Assembly (NCBI GenBank): GCA_937915285.1
Contig: CALDNG010000182.1
Span: 1-10,787 of the forward strand
From: an uncultured Desulfomonile sp.
Lineage (GTDB): Bacteria > Desulfobacterota > Desulfomonilia > Desulfomonilales > Desulfomonilaceae
Reading direction: 5' to 3'
DNA: 10,787 bases
Within the stretch, counting starts at the first letter, position 1; each line of letters opens with the position of its first letter. Positions 1,344 through 10,787 of this stretch are shown here, one piece after another. The position numbers were made by a program, and so were the translations under genes. The notes under the pieces are model-generated. The model saw nothing but the letters and a program-made list of their open reading frames with translations. It had not been told where the DNA came from and did not search any database.

Positions 1344-2801
1344 TCATTTCTGCTTTTTGAGCCGTGGCATCGGTCCCATAATCCGAACACCAAAATGCAT
1401 GAGCATGGTTAAATAAAATCCCAGCATCAAGACTACTGCTACGTGGATATTCACAAATTGCCTGAGCAACTCGAAACCCGAGAAAAGAAAAAATGCCAGG
1501 GTTAATGGTAGCAGGAAATCTCGGAAGTCGATTATTTTCAGATAAAACCTACAAAACGAGAAGGTAAGAGAGGTGGTAACGAGCTTGGTCAGTATAATGA
1601 CCAGGCAGCCCCCTTTAAGGCCCAGCGAGCCGACGAGAAAATGGTTGAAGGCAAGATTGAAAACCGTGGCAACCGCCTGGATGGCCAGAAGGATCTTTGC
1701 TGAGCCAGCAACCATCATGACGTAGGAAAAGAGGTTATTTTCAAAAGACAGGATTATTGTCCAGACGAGATATTTCTGCATCCAGACGGCATCCCTGTAT
1801 TCCTCAGGATAAATGATTCCGATTATTAAATCGCTTTCAGAGGACAGCAGGAACATGATCGGAAAAGCGAAGGCCATCAACCACTGAGCATTGCTCCTGA
1901 CGAGGTTCTGGGCATCATTTCTATGTTTCCACCACATCCCGGCTAGCAGTGGGAAAATCACCCATCCCAAAAACTGCTCGGAGGCGAGCACCGAAATCGC
2001 GTCAATAATGTTCCATGTAGCGCTGTAAAAGGCTACTCCAGTTACTCCTGTGTGTTTCTCCAGGTAGAATATATTGGTTTTATTGTAGATTATCCCAAGG
2101 ATCTCGATGAGAGCAAATACAATTGATGCCCCGAACATTTGTTTGATCAGGCGCCATTTAGGCATGACAAAAATGCTCGAAGAGTAGTCTTTCAAATATG
2201 CCGACAGGGCCAGAGCAATTCTGATCAGAGAGGAAATCAGTTTGAAAAGGCTTATTACAACGGGGCCTAATCCCAGCGCGACTGTTCCAAAGGCATAGAC
2301 ATATGAAATGATTGAAGCCGTTATCTTTATCTGGGCTTCCTGGGCCTGATGCCCACGAACTCTGAGGTCGGCAAAAAAAGTGTCAGCTACAGCTTCGGCC
2401 GCAAACCCTATGGACATGGCCATCAACACTGCTGACATTTCCCATGAAAGGCCCCTTTGCCAGGCTATTGCCAAAACTCCAAACATTGCGGGGATAAGTA
2501 GTCCAAGCTTTATCACGAAAACCCGATTTATGATTGATGGCGACTCCTCTTTCGAGGATGCGCCGAGTTCAGAAACCAGGGGATAATACAATCCGAACTG
2601 TATGACCGTGAAAACGATACTTCCGGCTGCCAGGGCATACATGATCTGGCCGTAATCAGAAGAATTTACCCATGCCAGGTATAGGAAAAAAAGGCCACCG
2701 ACCGCGCCATCGACCCCTTGGGCTGACAGGAGACTGATAAACCGGCCCAGGATTCCTGATTGGGAGGAACGTCCGGGTTTTTGAAGGTCGGGTTCAGGCA
2801 T
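1344..2801 (-). CDS. Wzx-like polysaccharide flippase (MOP/MATE superfamily)
   Basis: This is a multi-pass inner-membrane protein of about 485 residues with 12 or more hydrophobic segments separated by short charged loops. It has the size and pattern of lipid-linked oligosaccharide flippases (Wzx/RfbX, polysaccharide biosynthesis protein) of the MOP superfamily. The N-terminal entry (GILGRFISLLSAQGVDGAVG...) and the first paired helices ending before the YGQIMYALA segment are typical. The likely role is moving undecaprenyl-linked glycan units from cytoplasm to periplasm for O-antigen, capsule or exopolysaccharide. I chose the ATG at 2801. A TTG at 2840 would add 13 polar residues, but it sits almost at the predicted transcription start. 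Neither start has a clear ribosome-binding site. No glycosyltransferase or polymerase lies beside it in the window, which is unusual for a wzx. It could be a general lipid-glycan or teichoic-type exporter instead. Confidence 0.82.
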   Translation of the reverse strand: MPEPDLQKPGRSSQSGILGRFISLLSAQGVDGAVGGLFFLYLAWVNSSDYGQIMYALAAGSIVFTVIQFGLYYPLVSELGASSKEESPSIINRVFVIKLGLLIPAMFGVLAIAWQRGLSWEMSAVLMAMSIGFAAEAVADTFFADLRVRGHQAQEAQIKITASIISYVYAFGTVALGLGPVVISLFKLISSLIRIALALSAYLKDYSSSIFVMPKWRLIKQMFGASIVFALIEILGIIYNKTNIFYLEKHTGVTGVAFYSATWNIIDAISVLASEQFLGWVIFPLLAGMWWKHRNDAQNLVRSNAQWLMAFAFPIMFLLSSESDLIIGIIYPEEYRDAVWMQKYLVWTIILSFENNLFSYVMMVAGSAKILLAIQAVATVFNLAFNHFLVGSLGLKGGCLVIILTKLVTTSLTFSFCRFYLKIIDFRDFLLPLTLAFFLFSGFELLRQFVNIHVAVVLMLGFYLTMLMHFGVRIMGPMPRLKKQK

Positions 2802-2847
2802 TTTTTGAGACGGGCCTTTTGAACTGAGATTAGAACACAAGCTTTTT

Positions 2848-2856
2848 AATATACCA
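2848..2856 (-). promoter_or_regulatory. Candidate extended -10 promoter element for the flippase gene
   Basis: On the minus strand the sequence reads TGGTATATT, an extended -10 element (TGn followed by TATATT). No good -35 hexamer is found about 17 bases upstream, as is tolerated with extended -10 promoters. Transcription would start near 2841, leaving about 40 bases of leader before the ATG at 2801 and almost none before the TTG at 2840. Prediction only. Confidence 0.3.
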
Positions 2857-2974
2857 TTTCAGCAATATCGAAGGAAGCAAAAAGGATCTGAGAGAATCAA
2901 TGCAATCGGTTATGGGAAAGAGCCTTTTGAGAAATTTCCTGATTTGAGTTGATGAATTATCTGCCGGGTTTTTG

Positions 2975-2980
2975 TATACT
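2975..2980 (+). promoter_or_regulatory. Candidate -10 hexamer for the ABC permease group
   Basis: TATACT at 2975-2980 matches the sigma-70 -10 consensus at five of six positions. The nearest -35-like hexamer, TTGATG at 2949-2954, is 20 bases away, which is longer than optimal. A start near 2987 would give a leader of about 30 bases before the TTG start at 3018 and would exclude the upstream in-frame ATGs at 2952 and earlier. It diverges from the flippase promoter. Confidence 0.3.
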
Positions 2981-3002
2981 GTATGGTCACACTCATGAAA
3001 TT

Positions 3003-3009
3003 GGTGAGG
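3003..3009 (+). promoter_or_regulatory. Ribosome-binding site that fixes a TTG start
   Basis: GGTGAGG at 3003-3009 is a good Shine-Dalgarno-like sequence 8 bases before the TTG at 3018. It decides between that codon and the in-frame ATGs upstream, around 2949-2952, which lack such a site and would add a non-family N-terminal extension of 23 residues. Confidence 0.5.
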
Positions 3010-3017
3010 CGCTGTTT

Positions 3018-4202
3018 TTGAAATTAAACGATCTGATAACAATGTGCTGGCGCTCGGTCCTTCGAAACAGGCGGCGTTACAAGGCTGTTATGGCTGGAAT
3101 TGCAGTGGGCGCGGCGGGTTTTATAATTATTCAGACTATGGGTGACTCAGTAGAGAAGAAGATGGGTGAGCACCTGGAACTTCTCGGTGAGGCTACGGTA
3201 ATGAAGGCCCAGTGGCGAAATGATGATAGCTATCATCCCGGCGAATATTACATGTCGGATGTAAAAAAGCTGAAGAATATACCTCATGTTATGGCAGTAG
3301 CCCCTGTGGTCACTCTTCCGTCCGTTGAGGCGGTCTTCAAATCGAATGAATGGACTCCGGGACTGATGGGAATAGACCACGAGTTCTGGGTTACACAAAC
3401 CGCCAAACTTGAAAAAGGAAGGCTCATAGGCCCGACTGATGTTGTAGGCAGAAAGATGGTTTGTGTGGTTGGAGAGAATGTCCTCAAGCACCTCCTGAAG
3501 CTCCCCAATCCTGTAGGTGAAGTAATTGGTGTTGGGAGTCTGAAATTTGAGATCATAGGTGTTCTCGGTGGAATACAGAACAATGACCTCCAGAGAATGA
3601 TCGTGTTGCCTATAACTACTGCGCAGAGTTTGTTTCCTGGGTTGTACTGGATTCGGGAGATTTACCTGAGGGTAGACGACTGGAATTACGTGGAACCGGT
3701 CAGGGAAGAGGCTTTAAGGGTTTTAAGGGAATCACATCCTGGATATGAGAGTGGACTTGAACTGATCTATTATCCACGTAGGCTTGAAAAGGTTAAGTCA
3801 ACTGTTTTGCTAGTAAAGATGTTTATTTACGCTGCACTGGGCGTGACGGTAGTCTTGGGAGGCCTTGGAATTACTTCGGTCATGCTGGCCGCTATTCAGG
3901 ACAGAACTCGAGAAATAGGACTCCGAAAAGCGTTGGGCGCTAAAGAGGAGATAATTCTGCTGCAGTTTCTGATTGAGGCGGTTCTGATCAGCCTCATAGC
4001 TGGGGTTATTGGTGTAGCTTTGGGGATTTTCTTTGTAAATTTTCTCAAGGGTCCCTTGGGGGTAGAGATTTCGAGGGCAATGTTGACACTAAGCATATTT
4101 CTGGGCCTATTTTTTACTTTATTACTGGGAATCGTGTCTGGAATATATCCATCGCTTAAAGCGAGCAGGATGGATTCTGTTACAGCCATGAGATTCGAAT
4201 AA
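3018..4202 (+). CDS. MacB/FtsX-type ABC transporter permease
   Basis: This is an inner-membrane permease of the MacB/LolCE/FtsX type (about 394 residues). The order is one N-terminal helix after a basic stretch (RSVLRNRRRYKAVMAGIAVG), a large periplasmic domain of roughly 220 residues (MacB-PCD-like), then three C-terminal helices forming the FtsX domain. The coupling motif REIGLRKALGA is at 3909-3941 (residues 298-308), and the C-terminus SGIYPSLKASRMDSVTAMRFE is classic. Family members act mechanically on periplasmic substrates such as lipoproteins, peptides or enzymes rather than simply pumping through the membrane. A cognate ATPase is needed, but none is present in the window. I place the start at TTG 3018 because of the GGTGAGG site and because family proteins begin with this segment. 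The stop is two bases before the next gene's ATG, so the two are probably translationally coupled. Confidence 0.9.
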   Translation: MKLNDLITMCWRSVLRNRRRYKAVMAGIAVGAAGFIIIQTMGDSVEKKMGEHLELLGEATVMKAQWRNDDSYHPGEYYMSDVKKLKNIPHVMAVAPVVTLPSVEAVFKSNEWTPGLMGIDHEFWVTQTAKLEKGRLIGPTDVVGRKMVCVVGENVLKHLLKLPNPVGEVIGVGSLKFEIIGVLGGIQNNDLQRMIVLPITTAQSLFPGLYWIREIYLRVDDWNYVEPVREEALRVLRESHPGYESGLELIYYPRRLEKVKSTVLLVKMFIYAALGVTVVLGGLGITSVMLAAIQDRTREIGLRKALGAKEEIILLQFLIEAVLISLIAGVIGVALGIFFVNFLKGPLGVEISRAMLTLSIFLGLFFTLLLGIVSGIYPSLKASRMDSVTAMRFE

Positions 4203-7543: not shown

Positions 7544-8725
7544 ATGAGAATAATAAACATGGATCACGTGGCTGCTTCTCCGTTGTTGCCGGAAGTGGTT
7601 GACTCCATGATCCCGTTCCTGAAGGAAAAATACGGTAACCCATCGAGCATGCATAGCCTTGGTGAGGAAGTTACTGAAGCCATAGATGAATCTCGTGAAG
7701 AAGTGGCGAAACTTATCAACGCCAAGCCTACAGACATAATTTTTACGTCCGGTGGCACCGAGTCAAACAACTGGGCCCTCAAGGGAGTCATGCAAGCCAA
7801 CAGGTCCAGAGGTAATCACCTCATTACTTCATCGATTGAACATTTCTCCATAATGCATGCCATAAAAGCGCTTGAGAAAAGTGGTATCGAAGTAACCAGA
7901 TTACCCGTAGACCAATATGGTTTTGTAGATCCTGATGATGTGAAAAAGGCAATTACGCCACAAACAACTCTTATCTCTGTCATGCACGCAAATAACGAGA
8001 TAGGAACTATAGAACCTATAGCTGAAATAGGTAAGATTGCCCGCGAACGTGGCATTCCGTTCCACACGGATGCAGTCGCCACGGTTGGAGTGATCCCGGT
8101 AGATGTTCAGGCCATGAATGTTGATCTCCTGTCTCTCGCATCTAACCCGATGTATGGTCCTCATGGAGTTGGAGCCCTTTATGTCAAAAAGGGAGTAAAA
8201 ATAGCTCCCCTCCTGGATGGTGGCATCCAGGAAAGCGGTATGAGGGCGGGAACGGAGAACGTGTTGGGTATTGTAGGCATGGGCAAGGCGGCGGAGATAG
8301 CTTTAGGCCAGATGGACAACAGGATAGCCCATCTGATTCCTTTACGCGACAGGCTTATCAACGAAATTCCCAAAGCAATTGAAGAGGTTGATCTTGTGGG
8401 ACATCCCACGGACAGGTTACCTGGTAACGCAAGCTTAACCGTGAAATATGTCGAAGGTGAATCAATGCTTCTGTTTCTTGACATGGAAGGTGTCAAGATA
8501 GCCAGTGGATCGGCTTGCATATCCCGTTCACTCAAAGTTTCACACGTAATGCTTTCAATGGGAATTGACGCCGGAACGGCTCAGGGATCGTTGCTTTTCA
8601 CTTTGGGCGCTGACAACTCTTCAGAAGATGTGGACGATGTGCTGAGGGTGTTGCCACCGATCGTCCAGCGCCTCAGGGAAATGTCACCGCTTTATAAGAA
8701 GACGTCAAAAACCAAACCGGTTTGA
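7544..8725 (+). CDS. IscS/NifS-family protein lacking the PLP-binding lysine (probable non-desulfurase)
   Basis: This is a 393-residue fold-type I PLP-family protein, collinear with E. coli IscS. Conserved features are SGGTESNN (Thr72), the IEH ring-stacking histidine (His100), HANNEIGT, the pyridine-N aspartate (Asp176), GMRAGT, and the mobile loop SGSAC with Cys325. Cys325, Asp176 and His100 align without gaps to IscS Cys328, Asp180 and His104 by local offsets. The invariant HKxYGPKG lysine region instead reads S-N-P-M-Y-G-P-H-G, so Lys206 becomes Pro202 and His205 becomes Asn201. Gln183 becomes Ala179, Ser203 becomes Ala199, and the substrate-carboxylate Arg354 becomes Leu351. Canonical cysteine desulfurase chemistry therefore looks impossible. 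Archaeoglobus fulgidus IscS is a known relative that lacks the lysine and has no desulfurase activity, yet donates a cysteine ligand to an Fe-S cluster on IscU. The iscU gene follows 111 bases downstream. Automatic annotation would probably call this an active desulfurase. Confidence 0.93.
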   Translation: MRIINMDHVAASPLLPEVVDSMIPFLKEKYGNPSSMHSLGEEVTEAIDESREEVAKLINAKPTDIIFTSGGTESNNWALKGVMQANRSRGNHLITSSIEHFSIMHAIKALEKSGIEVTRLPVDQYGFVDPDDVKKAITPQTTLISVMHANNEIGTIEPIAEIGKIARERGIPFHTDAVATVGVIPVDVQAMNVDLLSLASNPMYGPHGVGALYVKKGVKIAPLLDGGIQESGMRAGTENVLGIVGMGKAAEIALGQMDNRIAHLIPLRDRLINEIPKAIEEVDLVGHPTDRLPGNASLTVKYVEGESMLLFLDMEGVKIASGSACISRSLKVSHVMLSMGIDAGTAQGSLLFTLGADNSSEDVDDVLRVLPPIVQRLREMSPLYKKTSKTKPV

Positions 8726-8836: not shown

Positions 8837-9322
8837 ATGTATAATGAAACGGTAATGGAACATTTCAAAAATCCCCGAAACGTAGGTGAGATTGCAGATG
8901 CTGATGGTGTAGGGAGTGTCGGCAATCCGGCATGTGGGGATATCATGGAGTTCTACATCAAGGTGAAAGATGACGTTCTCGAGGACGTCAAGTTCAAGAC
9001 ATTCGGATGTGGAGCGGCAATAGCCGTATCCAGCATGGTCAGCGAGATGGCCAAAGGTAAGACCCTGGATGAGGCGCTTAAAATATCAAACAAATCTGTG
9101 ATAGAGGCATTGGAGGGCTTGCCCAAGAAGAAACACCACTGTTCCAATCTTGGCGCAGATGCATTGCACAGGGCAATAGAGGACTACTTTGCCAAGCAGA
9201 AAGGGTCTGACTCTGAAAAACAAGTGGATGGCCCTGAGATTTGTTCATGCCCGGTATGTGATGTAAACGATCCTGCCGAGGCCCCATTCTGCGCATCGGT
9301 TTGTGAAAGAACTTCGAAATAG
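8837..9322 (+). CDS. iscU: IscU/NifU-N iron-sulfur cluster scaffold with a Cys-rich tail
   Basis: This is a 161-residue scaffold on which [Fe-S] clusters are built before transfer to apo-proteins in the cytoplasm. Residues 1-118 form the IscU domain. The three cluster cysteines and the aspartate are present: Cys33 and Asp35 in GNPACGDIM, Cys58 in FGCGAAIA, and Cys102 in HHCSNLGADAL. The LPPVK motif bound by the HscA chaperone in E. coli is LPKKK here, so HscA-type handling is unlikely. Residues 119-161 are an extension: a polar linker, then C-x-C-x2-C-x10-C-x3-C (Cys136, 138, 141, 152, 156). The position and the I-C-x-C start resemble the beginning of the Bfd-like [2Fe-2S] domain in nitrogenase NifU, but that domain is missing. 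A GGAG site precedes the ATG by 7 bases. The gene follows the IscS-like gene and ends before a strong terminator. Confidence 0.93.
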   Translation: MYNETVMEHFKNPRNVGEIADADGVGSVGNPACGDIMEFYIKVKDDVLEDVKFKTFGCGAAIAVSSMVSEMAKGKTLDEALKISNKSVIEALEGLPKKKHHCSNLGADALHRAIEDYFAKQKGSDSEKQVDGPEICSCPVCDVNDPAEAPFCASVCERTSK

Positions 9323-10235: not shown

Positions 10236-10787
10236 TTAATCTGACTGGGCTGATCTAGATTCTTCAATCATTCTAACAAAGTATCTGTGCAGTCGATCGT
10301 CATCAGTCAGTTCGGGATGGAATGACATGGCAAGCAGATTTCCCTGCCTTACTGCGACTATCCTTCCATCCTCAAGCCTGCACACTACTCTTACCCCATC
10401 GCCAACGCGAGTGACCACAGGGGCCCTGATAAAGATCCCAGGGAATGGTGGACCTTCAAGGCCGCTTATGACGAGATCCGTTTCAAAACTCTCCAGTTGT
10501 CTTCCAAAAGCGTTACGCTCAACATCCATATCAATCAGGTTGAGGAGAGGCTGGTCAAAACCGACATCTTTTGCCATCAAGACCAAGCCCCCACAAGTTC
10601 CCCAGAAAGGTATTTTTCGGGATAGTTCTCGCAGTTCCTCAATGAACCCCCACTGGCGCGCCAGTTTGCCCACCGTGGTGCTTTCACCACCAGGGATTAT
10701 GAGGCCATCTATTCCCTCAAGGTCCTCTGGAAGACGAACCTCTATAGTCTCGATTCCCAGCCTTTTCATGGCCGAGCAATGCTCTTC
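10236..10787 (-). CDS. pdxT: PLP synthase glutaminase subunit PdxT (N-terminus cut by window edge)
   Basis: PdxT is the class I glutamine amidotransferase subunit of the PdxS-PdxT pyridoxal 5'-phosphate synthase. It hydrolyses glutamine and channels ammonia to PdxS for ribose-phosphate-dependent PLP synthesis. The family motifs appear in order: IIPGGESTT, the nucleophile in FWGTCGG (Cys codon 10593-10595), ERNAFGRQ, IFIRAP, and SFHPEL with the His and Glu of the triad. The usual GTCAG is GTCGG here, a mild change. The frame stays open to 10787 and reads E-E-H-C-S-A before an internal Met at 10769. Family proteins have about a dozen more residues (typically starting MKIGVLALQG), so the start lies beyond the edge. 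The pdxS partner is not in the window and is probably just outside to the right. Confidence 0.95.
   Translation of the reverse strand, partial: EEHCSAMKRLGIETIEVRLPEDLEGIDGLIIPGGESTTVGKLARQWGFIEELRELSRKIPFWGTCGGLVLMAKDVGFDQPLLNLIDMDVERNAFGRQLESFETDLVISGLEGPPFPGIFIRAPVVTRVGDGVRVVCRLEDGRIVAVRQGNLLAMSFHPELTDDDRLHRYFVRMIEESRSAQSD

Follow-up and report, generated by a model that had tools for sequence, protein, structure and literature searches.

In an uncultured Desulfomonile sp., an IscS-like protein encoded next to iscU (designated IscS*) lacks the PLP Schiff-base lysine of cysteine desulfurases as well as two further active-site residues, and it belongs to a class of such proteins that is represented in several phyla, among anaerobic bacteria as well as some archaea. 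We consider it likely that IscS* is a natural non-desulfurase IscS, which probably serves as a platform for cluster assembly on IscU and is fed by sulfide or by a TusA/DsrE persulfide. Textbook Fe-S cluster synthesis starts from cysteine via a PLP desulfurase. The window, i.e., the whole stretch of DNA analyzed (10,787 nt), carries the following features:

7544-8725, + strand: iscS*, encoding a Lys-less IscS/NifS-like protein of 393 aa (open reading frame; Pfam Aminotran_5, 265.3 bits)
8078-8080, + strand: Ala179, replacing Gln183 in E. coli numbering (alignment)
8144-8149, + strand: Asn201-Pro202 (codons AAC CCG), replacing His-Lys; Lys206 of E. coli IscS is the PLP Schiff-base Lys
8516-8518, + strand: Cys325, the catalytic-loop cysteine, retained (Cys328 in E. 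coli, Cys321 in A. fulgidus; alignment)
8594-8596, + strand: Leu351, replacing Arg354 in E. coli numbering (alignment)
8837-9322, + strand: iscU, encoding a NifU_N scaffold of 161 aa (TIGR03419, 198.2 bits; cut-off 187.9)
9242-9304, + strand: Cys-rich, zinc-ribbon-like tail of IscU (Cys136, 138, 141, 152 and 156; alignment)

The iscU gene begins 111 bases downstream of iscS* on the same strand and is followed by truA and then pdxT, both on the opposite strand. The latter (PLP synthase glutaminase subunit, Pfam SNO; 10236-10787, - strand), which is truncated by the window end, thus lies near iscS*, past iscU and truA; the closeness of pdxT to a Lys-less IscS is probably due to chance.

The iscS* translation contains DAVATVGVIPVDVQAMNVDLLSLASNPMYGPHGVGALYV, and its codons 200-204 read TCT AAC CCG ATG TAT, with residue 202 beginning at 8147 (CCG, 8147-8149). 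The resulting motif is LSLASNPMYGPHGVGALYV, where the canonical counterpart reads ..HK..GPKG... An earlier note on this DNA had read Asn201-Pro202 in place of His-Lys, had counted 26 residues from Asp176 to Pro202 and had called the alignment secure; the codons and the spacing were both confirmed, and the alignment was upheld by HMMER, which placed Pro202 on the Lys of 9wep, a canonical solved desulfurase, with the closest gap approximately 30 residues away, as well as by the match of the predicted fold to IscS structures. A Schiff-base Lys shifted within the same loop was also considered and appears unlikely for the window protein, because the second Lys of the motif (YGPKG) is missing as well, with His207 in its place; this second Lys is missing in 117 of the 120 close homologues listed (see below) and is still present, as in canonical proteins, in 62 of the 90 Lys- and Arg-less loci of the wider survey.

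While the earlier note correctly recognized the loss of the Lys, it treated this residue as the mark of the class and overlooked the replacement of Gln183 by Ala179 and of Arg354 by Leu351; the class is marked mainly by the joint loss of Lys, Gln183 and Arg354. In E. coli IscS, Gln183 is reported to form a hydrogen bond to the PLP phenolate oxygen and Arg354 to touch the cysteine carboxylate, and activity is reported to be lost in variants at His104, Asp180, Gln183, Lys206 and Cys328 (PMC9978102). Loss of the Arg alone need not abolish activity, since an Arg354-to-Lys variant is described in the same paper as fully active, the substitute there being Lys and not Leu. IscS* retains His100 (His104 in E. 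coli), Asp176 (Asp180 in E. coli) and Cys325. Having lost the Lys and the Gln that engage PLP and the Arg that engages the substrate carboxylate, IscS* should not cleave cysteine and, judged from its sequence, is predicted to have no desulfurase activity. Family models place the protein close to the desulfurases and below their thresholds: it scored 512.6 bits with the NifS model TIGR03402 (cut-off 530.75) and 385.7 with the IscS model TIGR02006 (cut-off 643.2), and the class V aminotransferase fold was recognized far above its cut-off of 21.5 bits. The fold model (pLDDT 87) was matched by Foldseek to human NFS1, A. fulgidus IscS and E. coli IscS, with E ≤ 1e-40 and a TM-score of approximately 0.9 for the best chain of each.

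A protein homology search, in which 7999 candidates were scored, returned 120 listed matches including the window's own protein. Among these 120, the Lys was missing throughout (116 Pro, 4 Ala), the Gln183 site carried Ala, the Arg354 site carried Leu, the loop Cys was retained, and Asp176, His100, Thr72 and Arg234 were invariant. Named homologues in the list include Syntrophaceae, Desulfomonile (with P0081 assigned by its sources to Desulfomonile tiedjei) and Desulfomonilaceae, among others, and their source labels, where given, read "cysteine desulfurase" or "cysteine desulfurase family protein", as the earlier note had foreseen when it wrote that annotation pipelines would mislabel such proteins. 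The note had further stated that no single sequencing error turns a Lys codon into CCG; the replacement is not a sequencing error, given that the Lys is also missing in the 119 listed proteins besides the window's own. Between the window and its relative L001, dN was 0.057 and dS approximately 3.3; saturation precluded a dS estimate for three more loci.

We scanned genome contigs and used the best 80 of 84 relatives, 66 of which were non-canonical (including six with the Lys but without the Arg and the Gln) and 14 canonical. Record titles of the non-canonical relatives name Deltaproteobacteria or Desulfomonile, Nitrospirae, WOR-3, Chloroflexi, Omnitrophota, Aminicenantes, Schekmanbacteria and Bacillota, among others. 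Phylum-wide searches then covered the phyla of genomes G001 (198 genomes), G208 (196), G009 (118) and G010 (201), with up to 30 best loci taken from each and 20 extra loci hand-picked from the G208 phylum; the labels Desulfobacterota-, Halobacteriota-, Nitrospirota- and Chloroflexota-type follow the titles of the centre loci. In one more phylum (149 genomes), two matches were found at E 1e-165, one of them new. The count base comprised 277 loci (L001-L217 and L238-L297) gathered with Lys-less queries, so that the counts are no measure of class frequency; these were reduced to 262 by removing proteins with fewer than 200 bits or fewer than 340 aligned residues, and to 191 by merging at ≥95% identity, which included loci fetched twice. 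The canonical rows are the closest canonical relatives returned by the same searches, and not a random sample.

Among the 191 non-redundant loci, 90 encode an IscS without both Lys and Arg, five have the Lys and are without Arg and Gln, four are without the Lys and keep the Arg, and 92 are canonical; the Lys is thus missing in 94 loci, and the non-canonical total is 99. The loop Cys is retained in all 191. In the 90 Lys- and Arg-less loci, the Lys site is occupied by Gln (49), Pro (12), Ser (8), Asp (8), Ala (4), Thr (4), Arg (3), Met (1) or Val (1); 87 of them also have another residue for Gln183, and all 90 have Cys, His100 and Asp176. Proteins that retain the Lys and are without the Arg suggest that the substrate and PLP contacts can be lost before the Lys itself. 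In six Nitrospirota-titled loci (L020, L025, L027, L028, L072 and L076), IscS has His-Lys together with Met for Gln183 and Leu for Arg354; an ORF that reads as CO-dehydrogenase-like lies upstream. The earlier note had proposed that a Lys-less IscS beside iscU in a bacterium would extend a known exception into a class and had called for an alignment with a count of such homologues and their iscU neighbors; on sequence evidence both parts of this proposal hold, given 94 Lys-less loci of 191 across several phyla and the presence of iscU on the same strand, no more than 1.5 kb away, in 79 of 99 non-canonical as compared to 57 of 92 canonical loci.

The exception in question is A. fulgidus IscS, which is reported to be without desulfurase activity and to use Cys321 as a [2Fe-2S] cluster ligand (PMC7585200, PMC9769115), and in which the Lys site is occupied by Asp. 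A second archaeal case was already in print, as M. acetivorans IscS1 is reported to be without the Lys (PMC7585200). Three Methanosarcina-type loci in our set (L213, L214 and L216), in which Thr replaces the Lys, Arg354 is retained and His104 is changed to Asp, may be counterparts of IscS1. Archaeal loci also showed fusions of IscU: in the wider version of locus L213, designated L300, IscU carries a fused FeS_assembly_P (DUF59/MIP18) domain (10408-11040), with tusA and a DrsE_2 gene upstream, and L214 and L216 show by eye a similar IscU extension; in the Methanosarcinaceae Lys-less locus L154, IscU is fused to a pyridine nucleotide-disulfide oxidoreductase (Pyr_redox_2; 2662-4026), perhaps a built-in electron supply. 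An ORF that reads as DUF59/MIP18-like was also seen downstream of iscSU in L013, L014, L016, L017, L018, L043 and L077.

A tree of 85 proteins, built with the trait columns left out, placed the bacterial class and the Lys-retaining group in one clade (support 100/99), the Archaeoglobi type in a second (100/99) and the four Lys-less, Arg-keeping archaeal rows (the three with Thr and L215) in a third (100/94). Forcing the bacterial and Archaeoglobi types into a single clade was 35.7 log units worse without being rejected (AU p 0.13). Three to four state changes are needed on this tree, and the linkage statistics reported below therefore rest on few independent losses; an independent-pairs sign test of trait versus linkage, underpowered with one to three pairs, was not significant.

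The neighboring genes of non-canonical and canonical loci differ. At a distance of up to 1.5 kb, a same-strand tusA, which encodes a persulfide carrier, is found in 58 of 99 non-canonical loci and in none of the 92 canonical ones (Fisher p ~3e-22, ignoring kinship); among loci with at least 2.6 of 3.0 kb of flank present, the counts are 44 of 69 and 0 of 75, respectively. Because the first TusA model was seeded from a Lys-less locus, the count was repeated with a broader model based on 18 of the 20 loci in which Pfam had found TusA, which left the counts unchanged and added a divergent tusA in one canonical locus (L170). In the set L238-L297, which is not de-duplicated and partly overlaps earlier loci (e.g., L240 and L099 are L021 again), tusA was found in 31 of 33 Lys-less, 5 of 6 Lys-retaining and Arg-less, and 0 of 21 canonical loci. 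A dsrE-family gene was detected in 21 of the 99 non-canonical loci (19 of them also with tusA) versus 0 of 92 canonical, using models that had themselves been seeded from Lys-less loci. Pfam identified TusA together with DsrE or DrsE_2 in L298, L300 and L303, TusA in L299 and DrsE_2 in L302. The linkage to tusA occurs in the bacterial clade as well as in the Archaeoglobi-type and Methanosarcina-type groups; of the 58 loci, 20 have tusA on the upstream side (L055, one His-Gln class and the Archaeoglobi and Methanosarcina types) and the other 38 on the downstream side. Two Chloroflexota-type loci (L302 and L303) cluster a canonical iscS, an ORF that reads as NadA-like, a Lys-less iscS, iscU and a DrsE_2 gene. 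No TusA or DsrE match was found within the window, which thus has no same-strand tusA within 1.5 kb of iscS*; neither an adjoining tusA nor an adjoining dsrE was found in its nearest relatives (L001-L018 and kin), and no adjoining tusA in the WOR-3 loci L064, L078 and L080. The carrier route is therefore weakest for the window protein itself.

The IscU encoded in the window keeps Cys33, Asp35, Cys58 and Cys102, the last of which is invariant in 17 aligned rows, and was modeled well in its core and with low confidence in its Cys-rich tail, for which Pfam gave no match; among five tailed partners that were run, two (L017 and L020) reached the cut-off of a zinc-ribbon family. Tails of fewer than 120 residues with at least four Cys were found in 32 of 78 IscU partners of non-canonical IscS versus 2 of 57 canonical partners, with six other canonical rows carrying at least four Cys in a longer, NifU-type continuation. 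Among the 78 partners, 38 have tusA only, 23 the tail only, 9 both and 8 neither, a distribution that is suggestive of the IscU tail as a substitute for tusA.

Genomes carrying the Lys-less class were hand-picked for two further surveys, i.e., 12 for desulfurases and TusA and 24 for SufB/D, NifU_N and dsrA. A Lys-containing NifS/IscS-type protein is also present in all 12, and those cells therefore need not have lost cysteine desulfuration; TusA genes occur elsewhere in the genome in all 12. SufB/D was detected in 5 of the 24 genomes, with 14 of 14 control genomes positive. The adjoining IscU was detected in 19 of the 24 and is the sole NifU_N match in 8. In 5 of these 8, no SufB/D was detected, and the only scaffold of the NifU/IscU type that turned up is that of the Lys-less pair; one of these five, G011, carries L064 and is a 3.26 Mb record titled "chromosome", and the other four may be incomplete. 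Sulfate reduction was considered as a common trait of the class and set aside, since dsrA scored over the cut-off in just 9 of the 24 genomes; in the window's wider group (G001-G007), it did so in 6 of 7.

IscS* retains the fold of IscS, the cysteine of the mobile loop and IscU as its partner, and we propose that it has dropped cysteine cleavage. It would dock IscU as a cluster-building platform, with Cys325 acting as a cluster ligand and/or persulfide acceptor after the model of the A. fulgidus IscS cysteine. Sulfur would arrive as sulfide or, in relatives that encode them alongside, via persulfide carriers of the TusA/DsrE family; we infer both the sulfur source and the direction of sulfur flow. 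Binding of PLP or of a derivative may nevertheless persist, as Asp176, His100 and Thr72 are invariant among the 120 listed proteins and the A. fulgidus complex is drawn with PLP in a figure legend (PMC9769115). For the class, the best explanation in its specific form is a relay in which TusA, with DsrE, would load a persulfide onto the cysteine equivalent to Cys325, from where it would pass to IscU, and we regard this form as having nearly an even chance of being correct. The 58 of 99 versus 0 of 92 loci with linked tusA (also in the comparison limited to near-full flanks), the recurrence of the linkage in one bacterial and two archaeal groups and the Pfam confirmation of TusA and DsrE/DrsE_2 in example loci all argue for it. 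In E. coli, sulfur passes from IscS to TusA, and the proposed relay is the reverse; linkage is silent on the direction of flow, so TusA could be an acceptor, and the relay also has to contend with the small number of independent origins and with the missing tusA in the window's lineage and in the WOR-3 loci. DsrE is reported to be persulfurated by sulfide alone in vitro (PMC3397948). Another route, in which IscS* would only give a cysteine ligand and dock IscU while free sulfide is the sulfur source, is possible, if in our judgment appreciably short of even. It has the A. fulgidus precedent as reported, the presence of dsrA in 6 of the 7 genomes of the window's wider group, and an account that H2S can sustain IscU-dependent cluster synthesis in an E. 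coli that has no IscS (PMC13015791); on the other hand, it leaves the tusA/dsrE linkage unexplained, and dsrA reached its cut-off in 9 of 24 genomes only. For the window itself, we give equal weight to a TusA relay on the one side and to direct use of sulfide or an unlinked carrier on the other.

The remaining explanations retain less of our confidence. A canonical NifS or IscS encoded elsewhere could make the sulfur, with IscS* as a non-catalytic partner or regulator, e.g., in a mixed dimer; the Lys-containing protein in 12 of 12 genomes and the canonical iscS approximately 1-2 kb from iscS* in L302 and L303 (the latter with tusA by Pfam) are compatible with this, but in L081-L083 and L086 the canonical gene is set apart with its own NifU-type gene, and iscS* has its own same-strand iscU in 79 of 99 loci, so that we rate such a partnership as unlikely. 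An active PLP enzyme with a changed mechanism or substrate is more improbable still, as Gln183 and the substrate-carboxylate Arg are gone and the residue at the Lys site varies loosely across the class, from Gln and Pro to Met and Val; in its favor, Asp176, His100, Thr72 and Arg234 are conserved in all 120 close homologues listed, and K206A E. coli IscS is reported to retain some PLP binding, with a partial reaction at a very low rate being assumed by its authors (PMC9978102). A decaying pseudogene or a sequencing artefact has nothing to recommend it besides the loss of catalytic residues itself and was set aside as almost certainly wrong on the basis of the low dN relative to dS and of a loss shared by 120 of 120 listed proteins; the loop Cys in 191 of 191 loci and the linkage to iscU also speak against it.

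Returning to the platform reading, we tentatively extend it, with somewhat less assurance than even, to a widespread Fe-S system in which sulfide or sulfane sulfur, rather than cysteine, would supply a Lys-less IscS and IscU through a persulfide relay of TusA and DsrE. Such a system would have arisen in bacteria and archaea by loss of desulfurase activity, and some anaerobes would depend on it as their principal or sole scaffold system; the window's sulfate-reducer-like lineage would be a branch in which the carriers are not linked and IscU has a Cys-rich tail. A conserved group that is without desulfurase chemistry and keeps the rest of the machine, often with carriers encoded alongside, would show that a cysteine-independent route is still in use; the class would also make the sulfur source in sulfidic anaerobes a testable question and correct the common "cysteine desulfurase" annotation. 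Among the titles and abstract openings listed by our searches of open-access literature, a bacterial Lys-less IscS class, its three-residue signature, Lys-retaining intermediates and a tusA/dsrE linkage were not found; relative to the papers listed, these four points are apparently new, and single archaeal cases are already known.

Compared to known systems, IscS* shares with the group I cysteine desulfurases (E. coli IscS, human NFS1, TIGR03402) the fold, the loop Cys, the equivalents of Asp180 and His104 and the IscU partner, but is without their Schiff-base Lys, Gln183 and Arg354 and falls under the NifS and IscS model cut-offs. With the minimal IscS-IscU system (MIS), it has in common the two-gene iscS-iscU layout without carrier proteins; the MIS, however, is described as having a cysteine desulfurase (PMC12192291), while IscS* is without the catalytic residues. 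M. acetivorans IscS1, as published, resembles IscS* as a Lys-less IscS beside IscU, a likeness by description only. A further close counterpart is A. fulgidus IscS (PDB 4eb5, 4eb7 and 4hvk), although it has Asp where the window protein has Pro, falls into the separate archaeal group (100/99; a common clade with the bacterial proteins was not rejected, AU p 0.13) and has relatives with tusA immediately upstream (L199, L203, L204, L206, L207, L209 and L210), which the window does not. It shares with IscS* the same fold, with 44-46% identity in the structural alignment, the change of Gln183 to Ala, of His-Lys to Asn-X (Asn-Asp in the PDB sequence) and of Arg354 to Leu, the retained Cys and an IscU partner, and its structure, hitherto seen as an oddity, would become the model of a class.
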